Shown: positions 20,446 through 27,044 of the stretch, one piece after another | How the letters are laid out: every line of letters begins with the position of its first letter | How positions within the stretch are numbered: position 1 is the first letter of the stretch | Assembly: GCF_000012505.1 (NCBI RefSeq) | Contig: NC_007513.1 | Location: 2,170,001-2,234,000, forward strand | From: Synechococcus sp. CC9902 | GTDB taxonomy: Bacteria; Cyanobacteriota; Cyanobacteriia; PCC-6307; Cyanobiaceae | DNA: 64,000 bases | Reading direction: 5' to 3' | The notes under the pieces: model-generated | Database searches by the model: none | The model's input: only the letters and a program-made list of their open reading frames with translations | What the model was told of the DNA's origin: nothing | Made by a program: the position numbers and the translations under genes

Positions 20446-21095
20446 GCAAGCAAATCGAGAAGGCCCTCACGAATCGAGGAGTGTTCCAGCAGCGGTGGTG
20501 GGGCACCTACCTGACGCAACGACTCCGTCATCCGATTGGGCGCAAGTGCAAGAGGAATTGGTCGAGCATCAGCGTGCTGAGTCTGATACTCAGGCCAGCG
20601 ATCGAACGAAACCAACGGAAGCGTCAAAGAGACCGACAACATCGTTAAAAAACGATCAGCGACCCCTTCTCGCAGGGGGTGGTGCACCAAAACAGAACCT
20701 GGCTCCAGTTGACGCTGAACAGAAGACGCCACCAGGCCCCACCAAAGAGGCCATGCACCAAGAAAGGGCAACATCGTGACCCTCGCGCCGTCGGTACACA
20801 AGCGCTGACGAATCGCCGGCACATCAGCTCTCGCATGGGCCCCAGGCCAAAGAAGCAACGGAAGCAAAAGAAGTGGATAATCCGGAGCCAGTGGGCACTC
20901 TTCTGCCGTGAGTGCTTGCAGTTGAACGGGTGCTGAGCGCTTGCCCTGCAGCTCGTCGACAAAAGACGACAAACACGACGGCACCACTCCACCCGCACGA
21001 CCATGCACAACCATCCGAATCGCAAACTGCTGCGAAGCAGAAGAACGATTCCGTAACAACGGCCACGGATCAACTACCAGGTCCCCTGGTGTCAT
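20433..21095 (-). CDS. Sirohydrochlorin chelatase, CbiX/SirB type
   Basis: About 220 residues from ATG 21095. MVVHGRAGG near the start and LLLLPLLLWPGAHARADVP in the middle carry the two metal-chelating histidines (HGR and PGAH) of CbiX/SirB chelatases. In this setting, between cobA and nirA, iron insertion into sirohydrochlorin is the likely reaction. A C-terminal half of about 100 residues has no motif I know. The open frame extends to 21380, but that part looks like non-coding overlap with a plus-strand small gene. No precorrin-2 dehydrogenase is seen nearby. Confidence 0.75.
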   Translation of the reverse strand: MTPGDLVVDPWPLLRNRSSASQQFAIRMVVHGRAGGVVPSCLSSFVDELQGKRSAPVQLQALTAEECPLAPDYPLLLLPLLLWPGAHARADVPAIRQRLCTDGARVTMLPFLGAWPLWWGLVASSVQRQLEPGSVLVHHPLREGVADRFLTMLSVSLTLPLVSFDRWPEYQTQHADARPIPLALAPNRMTESLRQVGAPPPLLEHSSIREGLLDLLACLP

Positions 21096-21122
21096 CAGCC
21101 TGGTATCTCCGCTGTCGAATCC

Positions 21123-21338
21123 ATGACGCGCCGTCGCTACACCGATCGTGCTCCATTGACGAGCCAGTCGTATCGGAGCCATTCCGATAGGGACTTCGTC
21201 CAACGCAGGCGCTACCCCTCCGACGAGCCTCGAGTTCCCAGTGAGCTGGATCGAGACATTGCCGCCATGAAACGCGTCTGGCAGATGGTCCGAGCCGGAG
21301 CGATTCGGATGGTTGGCGAAATAGGACGCCAATACTGA
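21123..21338 (+). CDS. Small basic hypothetical protein (71 aa)
   Basis: Begins MTRRRYTDRAPL; Arg-rich, disordered-looking first half, then a probable amphipathic helix (ELDRDIAAMKRVWQMVRAGAI) to the end. Divergent from the chelatase (28 bases apart) and followed by the nirA promoter region. The well-formed helix argues for coding, but the same DNA is open on the minus strand as an upstream extension of the chelatase, so one of the two is false; the plus frame reads more like protein. Confidence 0.5.
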   Translation: MTRRRYTDRAPLTSQSYRSHSDRDFVQRRRYPSDEPRVPSELDRDIAAMKRVWQMVRAGAIRMVGEIGRQY

Positions 21339-21484
21339 ACCAACGACAAGCTGCCTTCTACGTCTCCACGCCAGCCACAAGATGTAGCCAAAGCAACCAA
21401 AATCATGGGCAATGAAGCAAGTTGAAGGCGAAAGTCAAACGGTCTAATTCGCTACCGACTGAAAGGGATACGCACGGTTAATTG

Positions 21485-21499
21485 TGTGAGTCCGGCACA
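21485..21499 (+). promoter_or_regulatory. Weak candidate NtcA-type site upstream of nirA
   Basis: TGT-N9-ACA match (TGTGAGTCCGGCACA) about 94 bases before nirA. This is the looser NtcA consensus; no exact GTA-N8-TAC was found in the 250 bases before nirA. Location is right, strength is poor. Confidence 0.25.
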
Positions 21500-21592
21500 A
21501 CAACTGATCTAGATGCTTTGCCAAATACGTAAATGAGCTTCCCGATAAGCATTCCTAATTCAAGCAATTAATCCCTCTATACGACAGATCAC

Positions 21593-23134
21593 ATGACAGC
21601 CAGCTCCCCATCCAAGCCCTATCTAGATGGCAAGAAACTGAACAAGATTGAGCAAAAAAAAGCCGATAAGGACGGCCTACTCATCGGAACCGAAATTGAT
21701 CAGTTTGCTGAGCTGGGTTGGGAGAAAGTAGACGAGACAGATTTACAACTCCGACTGAAGTGGTACGGCATGTTTTGGCGCCCCAAAACGCCGGGCAAGT
21801 TCATGCTTCGACTCAGAGTTCCAAACGGTGTGTTGTCGTCTCAACAGCTAAGGGTCGTTGCATCAATTGTTGAGCGTTACGGAGAGAATGGAAGCTGCGA
21901 TATCACAACACGCCAGAATCTTCAGCTCCGTGGTGTCTTGCTTGGAGATTTTCCTGAAATTCTCAAACGCTTAAAAGAAGTAGGCTTGAGTTCGATCCAG
22001 TCGGGGTTCGACAACCCTCGCAATGTCACTGGCAATCCACTAGCGGGAATCGATCCACAAGAAATTGTCGATACACGCCCATACACAACTGAACTTCAAA
22101 ACTTCCTCACAAACAATTGCGCAGGAAACCCAGAATTCTCCAACCTTCCACGCAAATGGAACACCGCAGTTGCAGGCTCAAAAGATAATTTTTTACTCCA
22201 TAACGACATTATTTTTCACCCCGTAGAACATAACGGCGTAATGGGATTTGGAGTTTGGATTGCTGGAATCCTCTCCTCACAACTGAATGCTTATGCACTT
22301 CCACTGAATGCTTGGGTAAAACCCGACCAGATTTGTGACATGACTGCAGCAGTCATCAAGATCTGGCGTGACAACGGTGAGCGTGACAAACGACCAAAAG
22401 GCCGATTCCGCTTGTATCTCGATGAAGTCGGACTCGATGCCTTCAGGGCAATGGTGGAAGAACGCTTTGGGCCACTGATCCCTGATCCAGGTTCTGTATT
22501 TAATACCGAGCCCCGTTCTCATTATGGAATTCATCCACAAAAACAAGAAGGTCTTTCCTTTGCAGGCTTGCACATTCCCGTTGGACGCTTAACAGCACAA
22601 GATCTACATGATTTCGCCACCGTTAGCCTGCAATATGGCAGCGGTGAAATCCGTCTTACTGAAGACCAAAATGTCATTCTTGTGGGCCTCACAAATGACA
22701 CCATTGATGGCCTAAAAGAAGATCCTCTACTTCTACGCTTCCCATTAGAACCTGGCAGCATTGCAGCAGGCACGGTGTCGTGCACAGGCAGTACCTATTG
22801 CAGCTTTGCACTTACCAACACCAAGGATCAGGCTCTCAAAGCAGCCAAGGAGTTGGATGCGGAATTAAATCTTCCGGAAGAACTGAAAATTCATTGGACA
22901 GGTTGCCCAAATACATGTGGCCAGGCCTACATGGGTGCAATCGGCCTCACTGGAACCAAAGCAAAAAATAGCAATGGTGTAATGGGTGAGGGGTACACCA
23001 TCACCATTGGCGGCTCACAAGGAGCCAACCCAACGCTTGGTGAGCTCCATCAAAAAGCTGTACCAGCTGAAGAAATCAAATCGGTCTTGAAAAACGTATT
23101 AATCGAACAATTCGGTGCCACCGCAAAAACTTAG
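21593..23134 (+). CDS. nirA: Ferredoxin-nitrite reductase
   Basis: Reduces nitrite to ammonium with six electrons from ferredoxin, using siroheme and a 4Fe-4S cluster. The cluster/siroheme ligands are in TVSCTGSTYCSFA and HWTGCPNTCGQAYMG (CxxxxxC and CxxxC). ITTRQNLQLRGV in the first half is the siroheme-binding half-repeat. 513 residues, normal size, without the C-terminal ferredoxin extension some cyanobacteria carry. A 250-base leader precedes it and a hairpin follows. Cofactor genes cobA and the chelatase lie just upstream on the other strand. Confidence 0.97.
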   Translation: MTASSPSKPYLDGKKLNKIEQKKADKDGLLIGTEIDQFAELGWEKVDETDLQLRLKWYGMFWRPKTPGKFMLRLRVPNGVLSSQQLRVVASIVERYGENGSCDITTRQNLQLRGVLLGDFPEILKRLKEVGLSSIQSGFDNPRNVTGNPLAGIDPQEIVDTRPYTTELQNFLTNNCAGNPEFSNLPRKWNTAVAGSKDNFLLHNDIIFHPVEHNGVMGFGVWIAGILSSQLNAYALPLNAWVKPDQICDMTAAVIKIWRDNGERDKRPKGRFRLYLDEVGLDAFRAMVEERFGPLIPDPGSVFNTEPRSHYGIHPQKQEGLSFAGLHIPVGRLTAQDLHDFATVSLQYGSGEIRLTEDQNVILVGLTNDTIDGLKEDPLLLRFPLEPGSIAAGTVSCTGSTYCSFALTNTKDQALKAAKELDAELNLPEELKIHWTGCPNTCGQAYMGAIGLTGTKAKNSNGVMGEGYTITIGGSQGANPTLGELHQKAVPAEEIKSVLKNVLIEQFGATAKT

Positions 23135-23163
23135 GCACCAATCCAACATCCTCCGGTCTTGAT

Positions 23164-23188
23164 CGTGGCGCTTTCTTATGAAGCCACG
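23164..23188 (+). terminator. Hairpin after nirA
   Basis: CGTGGC (23164-23169) pairs with GCCACG (23183-23188) around a T-rich 13-base loop, 30 bases after the nirA stop. No T-run follows, so it may be a pausing or mRNA-stabilising structure between nirA and the small downstream gene. Confidence 0.4.
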
Positions 23189-23234
23189 GCTCCACCCAAG
23201 GACTCTTCATTTTCCATCTCTTTCAACCATCAAT

Positions 23235-23369
23235 ATGGCTTTCCAAAACGATCTCTTCTCGCGTTTCGTTAACTGGCTGAGCTCCAGCGGACCAGACAAG
23301 AGCGCCATATCTCGCGGAGGCGGAAACTCAGATCTTTTTTCACGCTTTATGAACCGCATTAGCGGTTAA
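23235..23369 (+). CDS. 44-residue peptide with duplicated DLFSRF motif
   Basis: ATG 23235 to TAA 23369. The peptide opens MAFQNDLFSRFVNWLSSSG and closes SDLFSRFMNRISG, so the block N/S-DLFSRF-x-N is present twice around a Gly/Ser-rich, charged linker. Both copies would form short amphipathic helices, suggesting peripheral membrane or protein binding. It lies between nirA and the FNT channel on the same strand, 38 bases from the channel. No family recognised. The internal symmetry makes chance unlikely. Confidence 0.6.
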   Translation: MAFQNDLFSRFVNWLSSSGPDKSAISRGGGNSDLFSRFMNRISG

Positions 23370-23407
23370 TTAACGCGACCTTACTCAATTAATATCACCA
23401 CAAATCT

Positions 23408-24295
23408 ATGGATTACGTTCTTCCAAATGAACTTGTCGACGGCATGATTACTGCCGGCGGCAAAAAAGCAACAGTCAGCATTAAAAATTTGCTGATTCGT
23501 GGCTTCTACTCCGGCGCGATTCTTGGACTCGCTGTGATTCTTGCGCTCACAGTTGGAATCCTCACTAAATTGCCGTTTGTTGGCTCTTTACTCTTTCCTT
23601 TCGGTTTCGCCAGCATCGTGCTTTTTGGCATGGAGCTCGTCACCGGAAACTTTGCTCTACTTCCGATGGCAACTTGGGCGGGCAAGAGCACCTGGGGCGC
23701 TACTTTCCGCAATTGGACTTGGGTGTGGATTGGTAATTTTATTGGCACCGCTGTTGTGGCGCTGATCATGGCGATCAGCCTCACCAGCGGTTCGATGGAT
23801 GCGGCAGCAGACAACATTGGACCTCCAATTTGGGACCTGGTTGCTCAAAAAATCGTTGCTCTCAATCAAATTAACGTTGAGAAAAAGTACGAAGCGCTGG
23901 GCAGCATGGGTTTCTTCCTCGCATTCCTCCGCGGTGTTGTTGCGAACTGGTTGGTGTGTCTTGGCGTCACCATGGCTTTGGTTAGCAAAAGCGTTCCAGG
24001 CAAACTTCTTGCCTGCTGGCTGCCGATCACGGCTTTCCAAACAATGGGAATGGAGCACATTGTGGTGAATCAGTTTTTACATACAGCTGGTCCAATTCTT
24101 GGATCTGGAGTGCCTTTTACGAAAGTAATTTTCTGGAACTTCCTTCCTGTTACCCTCGGCAATATCATTGGTGGAATGGTGTTTATTGGAATGCTCTTCT
24201 ACAGCACCCATCGCACCACCATGGAAAACGTGCTTCCCACCGAGCACGATGACAAACTAGAGCGTGAACTGGCAGCCGAGCTTGGTGCCCGCTGA
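23408..24295 (+). CDS. Formate/nitrite transporter (FNT) family channel
   Basis: 295 residues with six membrane helices. FGFASIVLFGMELVTGNFALLP (shown by its core, GMELVTGNFA) and NWLVCLGVTMA are FNT family signatures of the half-helices lining the pore; FWNFLPVTLGNIIGG is the C-terminal half-repeat. Placed just after nirA in a nitrate island, it is most likely a nitrite permease (NirC-like) rather than a formate channel, although purU and purT elsewhere in the window show formate metabolism too. The HEAT gene begins 6 bases after its stop. Confidence 0.9.
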   Translation: MDYVLPNELVDGMITAGGKKATVSIKNLLIRGFYSGAILGLAVILALTVGILTKLPFVGSLLFPFGFASIVLFGMELVTGNFALLPMATWAGKSTWGATFRNWTWVWIGNFIGTAVVALIMAISLTSGSMDAAADNIGPPIWDLVAQKIVALNQINVEKKYEALGSMGFFLAFLRGVVANWLVCLGVTMALVSKSVPGKLLACWLPITAFQTMGMEHIVVNQFLHTAGPILGSGVPFTKVIFWNFLPVTLGNIIGGMVFIGMLFYSTHRTTMENVLPTEHDDKLERELAAELGAR

Positions 24296-24301
24296 CGAAC
24301 C

Positions 24302-25024
24302 ATGCACAGTGACGAGTCGATTCTTTGGGAACGACTCGCGCAATCAAGACGGGCTCCTGTAGAGCCTTCCTGGCTGGGGGAGATTTACTCCCCCAGCCTT
24401 TCGATTGATCTGCGTCGAGCGGTCTGCGAAAAACTAGGGATGTTCGCTGAACGAGGCTGGCCCATCATCCAACTGTTGTTGGATCAGCATGGCCTAACGC
24501 CAGATTTAGTCATGGCTGCAGGGCTCTGCCACCAACCTGAATCTCGCGATTGGCTGGTTCAACAACTCCATAACGATGAACAGCACAACGATGCTCTTCA
24601 GCTCAGTCTTGTGGAAGCACTGTCGTGCTGGGGTGCCGATGTGCCCCAGAACATTGTGGTGGATTGCCTTAATCATCCAGCGCAGCAACAACGGCTTGCT
24701 GGATTGCAACTTTTGATCTTTCGCGCCTACACGTTGAGTGATCAGGACCTTCTCCATCTTTGCGAGCCAGCCCTGCAGGACTTTCGTGATCCCGTGGTGA
24801 TTGCTGCGATTCGTTTACTTCAACGCCGCGATGGTGTCGTCATTGCTGAACGACTCTCCCAGCTATCTGAAACTGATTCTGAATCCATTGCCGAAGCAGC
24901 AATACGCGCTCTTGGCTGCATTGGAACATCAACCAGTCAACGCTGCTTGCTGGAGATCAGCCAATCACTGAAGAATGAACATCGTCGAACAATGGCCTGC
25001 CAACAGCTCGCCCAACAATTCTGA
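24302..25024 (+). CDS. HEAT-repeat protein in the nitrite operon
   Basis: 240 residues, entirely alpha-helical, with repeated helix pairs carrying the HEAT/PBS-lyase pattern (LRRAVCEKLGMF, LVEALSCWGADVP, VIAAIRLLQRRDG, IAEAAIRALGCIG). No membrane segment or catalytic motif. It starts 6 bases after the FNT channel gene, so it is cotranscribed. HEAT proteins usually hold partners together; regulation or maturation of the channel or of NirA is a reasonable inference only. Confidence 0.8.
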   Translation: MHSDESILWERLAQSRRAPVEPSWLGEIYSPSLSIDLRRAVCEKLGMFAERGWPIIQLLLDQHGLTPDLVMAAGLCHQPESRDWLVQQLHNDEQHNDALQLSLVEALSCWGADVPQNIVVDCLNHPAQQQRLAGLQLLIFRAYTLSDQDLLHLCEPALQDFRDPVVIAAIRLLQRRDGVVIAERLSQLSETDSESIAEAAIRALGCIGTSTSQRCLLEISQSLKNEHRRTMACQQLAQQF

Positions 25025-25027
25025 AAG

Positions 25028-25053
25028 AAAAAGCCCGGCATTTGCCAGGCTTT
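25028..25053. terminator. Bidirectional terminator between the HEAT gene and cynS
   Basis: AAAGCC-C-GGC, loop ATTT, GCC-A-GGCTTT (25030-25053), a 9-base stem with one mismatch, between two convergent genes. The minus-strand side ends in a T/C-rich tract (from the A-run at 25025-25032), ideal for cynS; the plus side is weaker. Confidence 0.75.
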
Positions 25054-25089
25054 GAAAATAAGATATAAAGTACTCTTATCTTAAACAAT

Positions 25090-25530
25090 TTACCACTTTT
25101 TATAGGGAAGAAATTTTCCGCACATTGTAATTTTTACGCGATCACCCTTGGGGTCTTCAACTTTATCAACATCAAGGGTAAAGTCGATTGCGCTCATAAT
25201 ACCATCACCAAAATGCTCTTGAATTACATCTTTTAGGGGCATTCCATACACCTGCATGATCTCGTAGAAACGATAAATCAAAGGATCAGTGGGAATAACA
25301 GGATCCAAGCTCCCTTTCACAGGAAACTCCTGCATTGCAGCAGTTGTGGCAGCATCGAGTGACAAAAGACCAGCCAACTTCTCTGCTTCTTCTTTGGACG
25401 CTGTGGCCTGGCCATAAAACAATGAAGCGATCCATACTTCATCCAGTCCCATCGCAGACTCAAGGTCAGCAAAACTGAGGCCTTTGGCTTTTTTGGCCGC
25501 CATCAACGATGCAGTCATGGAAACAGTCAT
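25090..25530 (-). CDS. cynS: Cyanate hydratase (cyanase)
   Basis: Decomposes cyanate with bicarbonate to ammonium and CO2, giving an extra nitrogen source. 146 residues, normal. The catalytic triad Arg-Glu-Ser is seen in [11 protein letters not shown] (Arg and Glu) and GIMSAIDF (Ser), and the N-terminal helix-turn-helix-like domain ([20 protein letters not shown]) is intact. Convergent with the HEAT gene; no cyanate ABC transporter is present alongside. Confidence 0.97.
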
Positions 25531-25730
25531 GAAAAATACAAAGGAACATCACACTGCACTAAAAATTGCATCCCTTTCAAGGAACGTCTGAGCAGTTGAG
25601 TAACTGTTGCGTCCTTCTAAGCCAAGATATGCAACCGCTGCTACAAAAATAGAGACGTTTTTTGCAGCTTTGATCACAACGTGGCTGAACCATTTCAGTA
25701 GAGAATATAGATATAGATCGAAGACAGAAC

Positions 25731-25895
25731 ATGAGCCAACTACTGCGGTCGCTTTCTTCCTTGCTGGGCAGCCAGAAATCCGACAATGCAACGTTGACGA
25801 GCTTGGTGCTCGAACGCCTGTACTACGCCGATGGACGTCACCACCCTGAACATCCAAACCATGGAAGTTTTCAAGGCTTAACAACCTTTAGCTAA
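25731..25895 (+). CDS. Small hypothetical protein beside cynS (54 aa)
   Basis: ATG 25731 to TAA 25895, divergent from cynS. The peptide starts with an amphipathic helix (MSQLLRSLSSLLGSQKSD), then TLTSLVLERLYYADGRHHPE and a His-rich tail ending GLTTFS. An AT-rich TATAGATATAGAT tract about 15-25 bases upstream could be the -10 region. A longer overlapping frame in another register reads as non-protein. No family recognised; composition and promoter-like sequence favour a gene, the weak ribosome site does not. Confidence 0.5.
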   Translation: MSQLLRSLSSLLGSQKSDNATLTSLVLERLYYADGRHHPEHPNHGSFQGLTTFS

Positions 25896-25973
25896 GAGTG
25901 GCCAATCAGTAACAACGGCAACATCTTGGTGGGTCATTGCTGCAGAACACTCTGATCATCTGGAGAACCCCGT

Positions 25974-27044
25974 TTGACGATCGCAGAGGGTTCCGGCAAA
26001 GAACGGTTCAAAAACCACCTGCGCAAGGTGGGCAGCGGTGAACACACCAGCAAAGGTCTGAGTCGTGAAGAAGCTGCAGAAGCTCTCGATCTGATGCTTC
26101 AGCAGGAAGCAACCCCCGCTCAAATCGGCGCTTTTCTGATTGCCCATCGCATCCGTCGCCCTGAGCCGCAGGAGCTCACGGGAATGCTGGACACGTATCG
26201 ACACCTTGGGCCGAAACTCCAATCCAAAGCTGGCCAGACTCCGCCGGTGTGCTTCTGCATGCCCTTCGATGGACGCACCCGGACCGCCCCCATCTATCCC
26301 CTCACAACGTTGGTGCTTCTGGCGTTAGGTCAACCCGTGGTGCTCCAAGGCGGGAATCGCATGCCAATCAAATATGGCGTGACCGCCATCGATCTGTTTC
26401 GAGAATTAGGCGTGGAGCTGAGCGGACTCCCCCTTGAAACAGTGCAAGACGGGCTGCAAACCAACGGCTTCGCGTTGGTGCATCAACCCGATCACTTCGC
26501 TATCGCCGAGAGCTTGATCACCTATCGCGAAGAATTGGGCAAACGACCCCCCGTCGCCAGCCTTGAGCTGCTCTGGACCCCTCATCAAGGCGCACACCTC
26601 TTGATCAGCGGTTTTGTTCACCCTCCAACCGAAAGTCGAGCATGGGAAGCACTCCGCCTTGCGGAAGAAGCCCAGGTGGTCACCGTCAAAGGCTTAGAAG
26701 GCGGAACCGACCTGCCAATTGGGCGCGCCTGCATCACCGCAAAGGTTGATGGCGGTCACGCACAACGTTTAATTCTTCACCCGCGAGACCACGACTGCTA
26801 TGAAGCAGATCTGGAATGGACCGATCCTGCAACCTGGGCCCAACAGGCCCTTGAAGCGCTCAACAACAGTGGTCCCCTGCTCAGTGCCTTGCGTTGGAAT
26901 GCTGGGGTCTATCTCTGGTTTGCTGGTCAGAGTGCAACCCTCGAGGCTGGTCTTGAACGTGCGCAAGAAGCCCTCGAAGGCGGCACAGCGCTAACGGCCT
27001 TGCATCAACTTCAGGCGTGGAGCAAGGCCTTGGCCATGCGATAG
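25974..27044 (+). CDS. Anthranilate phosphoribosyltransferase-family protein (TrpD2/YbiB-like)
   Basis: 356 residues from a TTG start. N-terminal helical domain (GLSREEAAEALDLMLQQEATPAQIGAFLIAHR) and the central LQGGNRMPIKYGVTAIDLFRELG correspond to the glycosyltransferase family 3 fold. In true TrpD the PRPP loop is GTGGD and KHGNR-SSKSGSAD; here these read FDGRTRTAP and GGNRMPIKYG, so the tryptophan reaction is unlikely. YbiB/TrpD2 proteins are DNA/RNA binders of uncertain role. The last 34 bases overlap the convergent GNAT gene. Confidence 0.75.
   Translation: MTIAEGSGKERFKNHLRKVGSGEHTSKGLSREEAAEALDLMLQQEATPAQIGAFLIAHRIRRPEPQELTGMLDTYRHLGPKLQSKAGQTPPVCFCMPFDGRTRTAPIYPLTTLVLLALGQPVVLQGGNRMPIKYGVTAIDLFRELGVELSGLPLETVQDGLQTNGFALVHQPDHFAIAESLITYREELGKRPPVASLELLWTPHQGAHLLISGFVHPPTESRAWEALRLAEEAQVVTVKGLEGGTDLPIGRACITAKVDGGHAQRLILHPRDHDCYEADLEWTDPATWAQQALEALNNSGPLLSALRWNAGVYLWFAGQSATLEAGLERAQEALEGGTALTALHQLQAWSKALAMR

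Follow-up and report, generated by a model that had tools for sequence, protein, structure and literature searches.

The window analysed here is a 64,000-nucleotide stretch of Synechococcus sp. CC9902 (contig NC_007513.1), and coordinates refer to it unless another locus is named. The nirA gene (21593..23134, + strand) encodes a ferredoxin-nitrite reductase of 513 aa (NCBIfam PRK09566, E 1.5e-263) with a short C-terminus, ending QFGATAKT, that does not carry the helix module described below. It is followed by a small open reading frame on the + strand, from the ATG at 23235 to the TAA at 23369, with a 44-residue product, MAFQNDLFSRFVNWLSSSGPDKSAISRGGGNSDLFSRFMNRISG. This frame ends 38 bases upstream of a gene for an FNT-family nitrite channel (nitM/focA; 23408..24295, +; 295 aa; Pfam PF01226, E 3.7e-62). 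The last 21 channel residues (24230..24292, +) form a charged segment ending VLPTEHDDKLERELAAELGAR, as in nearly all of the relatives fetched. The segment matches one that is inhibitory in other strains (PMC4390861), a feature that the window FNT shares with the self-inhibited alpha-cyanobacterial NitM channels. A HEAT-repeat protein gene (24302..25024, +; Pfam HEAT_2, E 1.5e-8) lies downstream and is found 3' of FNT in most relatives.

The peptide contains an internal duplication. The motif DLFSRFVNWLS (residues 6-16; 23250..23282, +) is identical at 8 of 11 positions to DLFSRFMNRIS (residues 33-43; 23331..23363, +), and none of 20,000 peptide shuffles reached eight, so the DLFSRF repeat described in the earlier note is real. 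AlphaFold predicted two helices, at residues 3-17 and 32-43, with a pLDDT of 67 and a pTM of 0.29; this low overall confidence is what two helices on a loose linker would be expected to give. The intervening linker (residues 17-32; 23283..23330, +), which the earlier note had called a Gly/Ser linker, deserves that description by half, as it is partly conserved in alignments A1 and A3 and includes conserved positions other than Gly and Ser (approximately D-K-P-x-I-N-R-x-G-G-S in the family alignments). The symmetry proposed for the helices was not borne out. Helix 2 is near-invariant, with a mean column identity of 0.87 and a net charge of +1 in 51 of 52 sequences, whereas helix 1 is variable (0.73) and usually neutral, apart from an invariant Trp. 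Both are amphipathic, with hydrophobic moments of 0.67 and 0.77 that were equalled by 0.8% and 1.9% of shuffles, respectively. Polar Asp, Ser and Asn positions are also conserved on the helices, most of all on helix 2. No Pfam family was matched at E<=0.01 by the 52 peptide members, and NCBIfam gave no match to the window peptide. A PDB search with the family profile gave a best E of 0.026, mostly to influenza haemagglutinin chains, and was taken as chance.

A conserved 27-nt hairpin of 10 base pairs with a 2-nt bulge is located between nirA and the peptide gene (23163..23189, +). Across 24 sequences, 99.6% of 240 cells were paired, and the surrounding DNA was unalignable. One pair was altered on both sides in 11 of the 24 sequences; resting on a single pair, this covariation may reflect few events. 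Among 69 genomes searched, a strong match occurred once per genome, at the nirA-peptide position, in 20 of 34 same-genus genomes, many of which had a weaker second match elsewhere. The hairpin is retained in two genomes with a dead peptide gene (G013 and G029). Among the 44 Prochlorococcus loci to which the hairpin model was applied, none had a strong match adjoining nirA. PMC9430850 inferred that the transcript is processed between nirA and the peptide, and the hairpin is a candidate for an element of such processing or of RNA stability. Rfam models found nothing over 21000-26500, and the NtcA consensus GTA-N8-TAC had no match near nirA.

A first search of 118 genomes returned 53 with a match at E<=1, including 40 solid matches, all in the picocyanobacterial family (two of the loci, L017 and L041, come from a single genome). 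Each of the 40 is flanked by nirA and FNT, one of them (G015) with a broken frame. The motif search in picocyanobacteria that the earlier note had suggested thus came out in favour of a gene. The earlier note had also named a frame broken in near relatives with the same gene order as a refutation of its proposal, and this was partly observed: among 23 same-genus genomes with FNT, the free frame is intact in 17 and broken in four (G013, G029, G015 and G030), G018 has lost the peptide, and G022 is without a free copy but bears a helix 2 module on NirA. The nearest relative, G014, has an intact frame with 89% identity. In listed pairs of 13 same-genus peptide sequences, which are not independent, dN/dS was 0-0.35. 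By these sequence comparisons, the frame is a conserved gene and not a chance frame, and is under purifying selection at the amino-acid level. As a separate observation, the FNT gene of G014 (L002, L059; a one-contig genome) has a frameshift near codon 26, which may be real or a sequencing error.

The co-occurrence of the peptide and the channel was analysed in 400 genomes sampled from the picocyanobacterial family, with the peptide called at E<1e-3. FNT was present in 154 genomes and the peptide in 134; both were found in 133, the peptide only in one, FNT only in 21 and neither in 245 (Fisher p 4e-82, ignoring relatedness). Two carriers, G022 and G129, were scored only through a helix 2 copy on NirA, and G015 was scored despite its broken frame. 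The sole genome with a peptide and no FNT (G199) carries a second-locus paralog. The FNT-only genomes include two that are partial or at a contig edge (G043, G308), two with a peptide pseudogene (G013, G029), one with a decayed remnant (G030) and one with a clean deletion (G018). In a further two FNT lies away from nirA (G055, G155), and in two nirA adjoins FNT with no peptide (G134, G366). Ten belong to one genus, g8, forming its whole sample, with nirA and FNT side by side. In the remaining FNT-only genome, G364 (L189), FNT is accompanied by the HEAT-repeat gene, and upstream there is an unrelated gene rather than nirA or a peptide.

In 59 of 60 named loci from species genomes, FNT lies beside the peptide or a fused copy, and the sixtieth (L114) holds a second-locus paralog. 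The peptide is directly upstream of FNT even where nirA is not adjacent (L121, L124 of Synechococcus SynAce01, L195 and L196), and both are present in the high-light Prochlorococcus loci L198 and L199. Weak family matches in other high-light Prochlorococcus (E 0.03-0.05) were put down to chance; in three genomes, they fell in a single long protein whose start resembles DNA polymerase I, as read from its sequence.

The NirA C-terminus of several lineages bears either one of the two helices or the pair of them, in every case with an FNT gene alongside. A tree was built from 89 distinct NirA cores, excluding the tail, and tail states were assigned by text patterns: helix 1 in nine rows, helix 2 in four, both in 13, another long tail in 20 and none in 43. 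The tree requires at least two origins of helix 2, at least two of helix 1 and at least one of the double form. By eye, several of the 20 other tails hold a Trp-containing stretch resembling a worn helix 1. The module was absent from the NirA tail in 18 of 18 loci fetched from FNT-less high-light Prochlorococcus (28 NirA matches), and in the FNT-less genomes G006, G032, G020, G023 and G057. In the last of these, a single 1296-aa frame (L053:4495-8385, - strand) reads from a NarB-like nitrate reductase into NirA; it is possibly a natural nitrate-to-ammonium fusion, the alternative being a stop lost in assembly.

The free peptide is missing in two of four helix 2 loci (L047 and L191; it is kept in L079 and L081) and in four of 15 loci with both helices, and in none of the nine helix 1-only rows. 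That the free peptide can be missing where NirA carries helix 2 or both helices, and was present in every helix 1-only row, suggests that delivery of helix 2 is what is required and that helix 1 makes the connection to NirA. Together with the near-invariance of helix 2 against a variable helix 1, this pattern leaves the reading of two like sites unsupported; the broader idea of two sites stands in part. A natural NirA-peptide fusion (L105) was modelled with AlphaFold using an alignment of 47 NirA sequences. NirA was well folded (pLDDT 82, pTM 0.83) and the module was undocked on it, at pLDDT 26-39. This would fit a tether to a third party, and is weak evidence.

In the clade whose NirA bears both helices, the start of the free peptide resembles the FNT N-terminus, and the DNA upstream of it is almost identical to the leader of FNT. 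From the sequence, a tandem duplication of ~203 bp appears to have placed the FNT start in front of the module and so to have made new free peptide genes (L101:3990-4382; G165:C1:1300678-1301278). G165 has three module copies, L101 two and L105 one. The one-copy cases may represent an older state, or the 203-bp repeat may have collapsed in assembly, as could apply to the one-copy loci L086, L087, L092 and L105. Paralogs of the form MDxFSAF... occur at a second locus, away from nirA and FNT (L192:5661-5813; L193:5187-5315, - strand; L114:3548-3829; L042:4685-4795); that of L042 is broken, and two lie near a similar small exported-looking protein.

A cyanophage copy of 48 aa was also found (L127:10001-10144, the same gene as L065:5980-6123). 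It lies downstream of a phage psbA, from which two ORFs separate it, and a phage DNA polymerase is nearby. The two IMG/VR contigs are identical over the 20,144 bases fetched and were taken as one virus; FNT was sought on both records and none was found. Another viral contig (L129) carries FNT and NirA and no peptide. In phage GenBank records, the phage peptide had no match and the window peptide matched only at E 8-9.

Our preferred reading, held at a probability of about 0.45 from genetic association and by analogy, is that the peptide is a bivalent docking element coupling NirA to the FNT nitrite channel. Helix 2 would bind an unchanging partner, for which the cytoplasmic face of FNT is the likeliest candidate, and helix 1 would bind NirA or pair with a module copy on NirA. 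Together, they would hold NirA at the channel mouth, perhaps opening FNT, so that toxic nitrite would enter where NirA consumes it. Where part or all of the module lies on the NirA C-terminus, it would do the same job in cis. We infer both binding events, the assignment of helices to partners and the effect on nitrite flux. The docking reading is favoured because the FNT linkage and the NirA fusions point to both partners, and because FocA-PflB is a precedent for the gating of an FNT channel by a soluble enzyme. The earlier note had proposed a bridge on the FNT pentamer or between channel and NirA; the genetic link to both partners (133 of 134 carriers with FNT, and the NirA fusions) agrees with the latter, and the symmetric like sites are not supported. 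Adjacent genes are readily fused and lost together. Linkage and fusion may therefore reflect position, and genetics alone is no proof of docking. Counting against docking are the 21 of 154 FNT genomes without a peptide at E<1e-3, with G018, G030 and G015 having lost it or losing it, the survival in L079 and L081 of a free peptide although NirA there carries helix 2, and the undocked module in the model of the natural fusion.

One alternative is that the peptide acts chiefly on FNT, gating it by lifting the inhibition that the C-terminal tail imposes, with no holding of NirA, and is the activator acting on this tail that was inferred by Maeda et al. (PMC4390861, 2015). According to the accessible part of that paper, the last 21 channel residues are inhibitory in S. 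elongatus, a host without this operon, as shown for the channels of CC9311 and MIT9313, and the CC9605 channel, which is without the 21 residues, is active. The company that the peptide keeps with FNT is consistent with this, as are G029, in which FNT has 275 residues with the tail gone and the peptide is a pseudogene, and G013, which is likewise tail-less with a pseudogene. However, these joint losses represent one lineage. An intact tail is found in three genomes that have lost the peptide or are losing it (G018, G030 and G015) and in four deeper lineages without the peptide (G055, G134, G155 and G366), and a rule that tail loss goes with peptide loss was dropped on these grounds. Gating through the C-tail is possible, with the tail-positive, peptide-negative lineages counting against it, and the NirA fusions would be left unexplained; we consider this alternative unlikely.

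The fusions would be accounted for if the peptide were instead a regulator or assembly factor of NirA, binding the enzyme and altering its activity or stability, with the FNT link a matter of operon position. NirP1 is a precedent for a small nitrite reductase-binding protein, and its authors did not find it in Prochlorococcus (PMC10907346, accessible part). Against this, FNT-less genomes keep NirA without the peptide or a NirA tail, the peptide remains beside FNT even at loci where nirA is not a neighbour, and the modelled fusion gave no confident docking on NirA, which makes a NirA regulator quite unlikely. Amphipathic helices with moments such as these might also bind the membrane and draw NirA near without specific contact with FNT, but a plain anchor would not need such strict company with FNT, and the conserved Asp, Ser and Asn, above all on helix 2, suggest a specific protein partner; we judge this slightly less likely still. 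That the ORF serves as a leader or spacer, its translation or RNA mattering and the peptide not, would suit the 38 bases before FNT and the conserved hairpin upstream. It is hardly credible given the selection at the amino-acid level, the fusion of the module to NirA, and the second-locus paralogs and phage copy away from FNT.

The docking reading can be carried further, into more speculative and doubtful ground: the peptide would be the missing reversible activator of the self-inhibited picocyanobacterial nitrite channel and would make it an enzyme-locked one, FNT opening only with NirA docked through the module, in trans or in cis, and the cyanophage would carry the module to open the host channel during infection. 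Nitrite would then enter only where a reductase waits. If docking itself is true, a module that can be encoded on its own or within the enzyme ties a channel for a toxic substrate to that enzyme. Uptake and release of nitrite by Prochlorococcus and Synechococcus are relevant to the ocean nitrite maximum and to nitrite cross-feeding, and the 44-residue peptide is a testable candidate for an active partner of a self-inhibited channel, with natural fusions, knock-outs and a phage copy at hand.

The gene, its induction and its resemblance to NirA are already in print. PMC9430850 describes SynWH7803_RS12335 (also printed RSS12335), a short ORF of Synechococcus WH7803 that lies between nirA and nitM and is reported to be co-transcribed with both. 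It is reported as induced upon ammonium withdrawal, and as up 194x under nitrogen starvation and 239x in nanomolar nitrate. It has two predicted helices and resembles part of the CB0101 and NATL2A nitrite reductases; its function was left open, and descent from existing nitrogen genes was suggested. The window peptide belongs with it (L106) in one orthologue group of 44-aa-class ORFs between nirA and nitM that align at full length: both have the same position and 44 aa, and residues 1-43 align with 51% identity. The FNT distribution, the different NirA fusions, the copy in a phage and the proposed docking role go beyond that account, and the accessible part of PMC9430850 contained no fusion analysis, FNT linkage, phage copy or pseudogene link. 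Further literature searches yielded no other paper recognised as describing the peptide. As far as searched, four observations are new: the module on NirA beside FNT and its absence from the FNT-less NirA tails read, the lineages with helix 2 on NirA that can be without the free peptide, the cyanophage copy near psbA, and the one lineage with both a dead peptide and a missing inhibitory channel C-tail.

Other small cyanobacterial nitrogen-control proteins were compared, each from the accessible part of its report. PirN and PirC of Synechocystis (PMC13205821) are DUF1830 proteins, and PirN is described there as absent from Prochlorococcus and most marine Synechococcus; an identity with PirN was rejected, since neither DUF1830 nor any other Pfam family was found in the 52 peptide members. 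NirP1 of Synechocystis (PMC10907346) is likewise a small protein tied to ferredoxin-nitrite reductase. It has a conserved Cys, three conserved Trp and predicted beta strands, whereas the peptide lacks Cys, contains a single Trp and is predicted to form two helices with no strand, and this identity was also rejected. A parallel proposed for NirA and NitM is FocA-PflB of E. coli (PMC11841067), in which a soluble enzyme that acts on the transported anion touches the FNT pentamer from the cytoplasm and gates it. PflB binds the N-terminal helix of FocA directly, whereas here the proposed link would be a two-helix module, either separate or fused to the enzyme.
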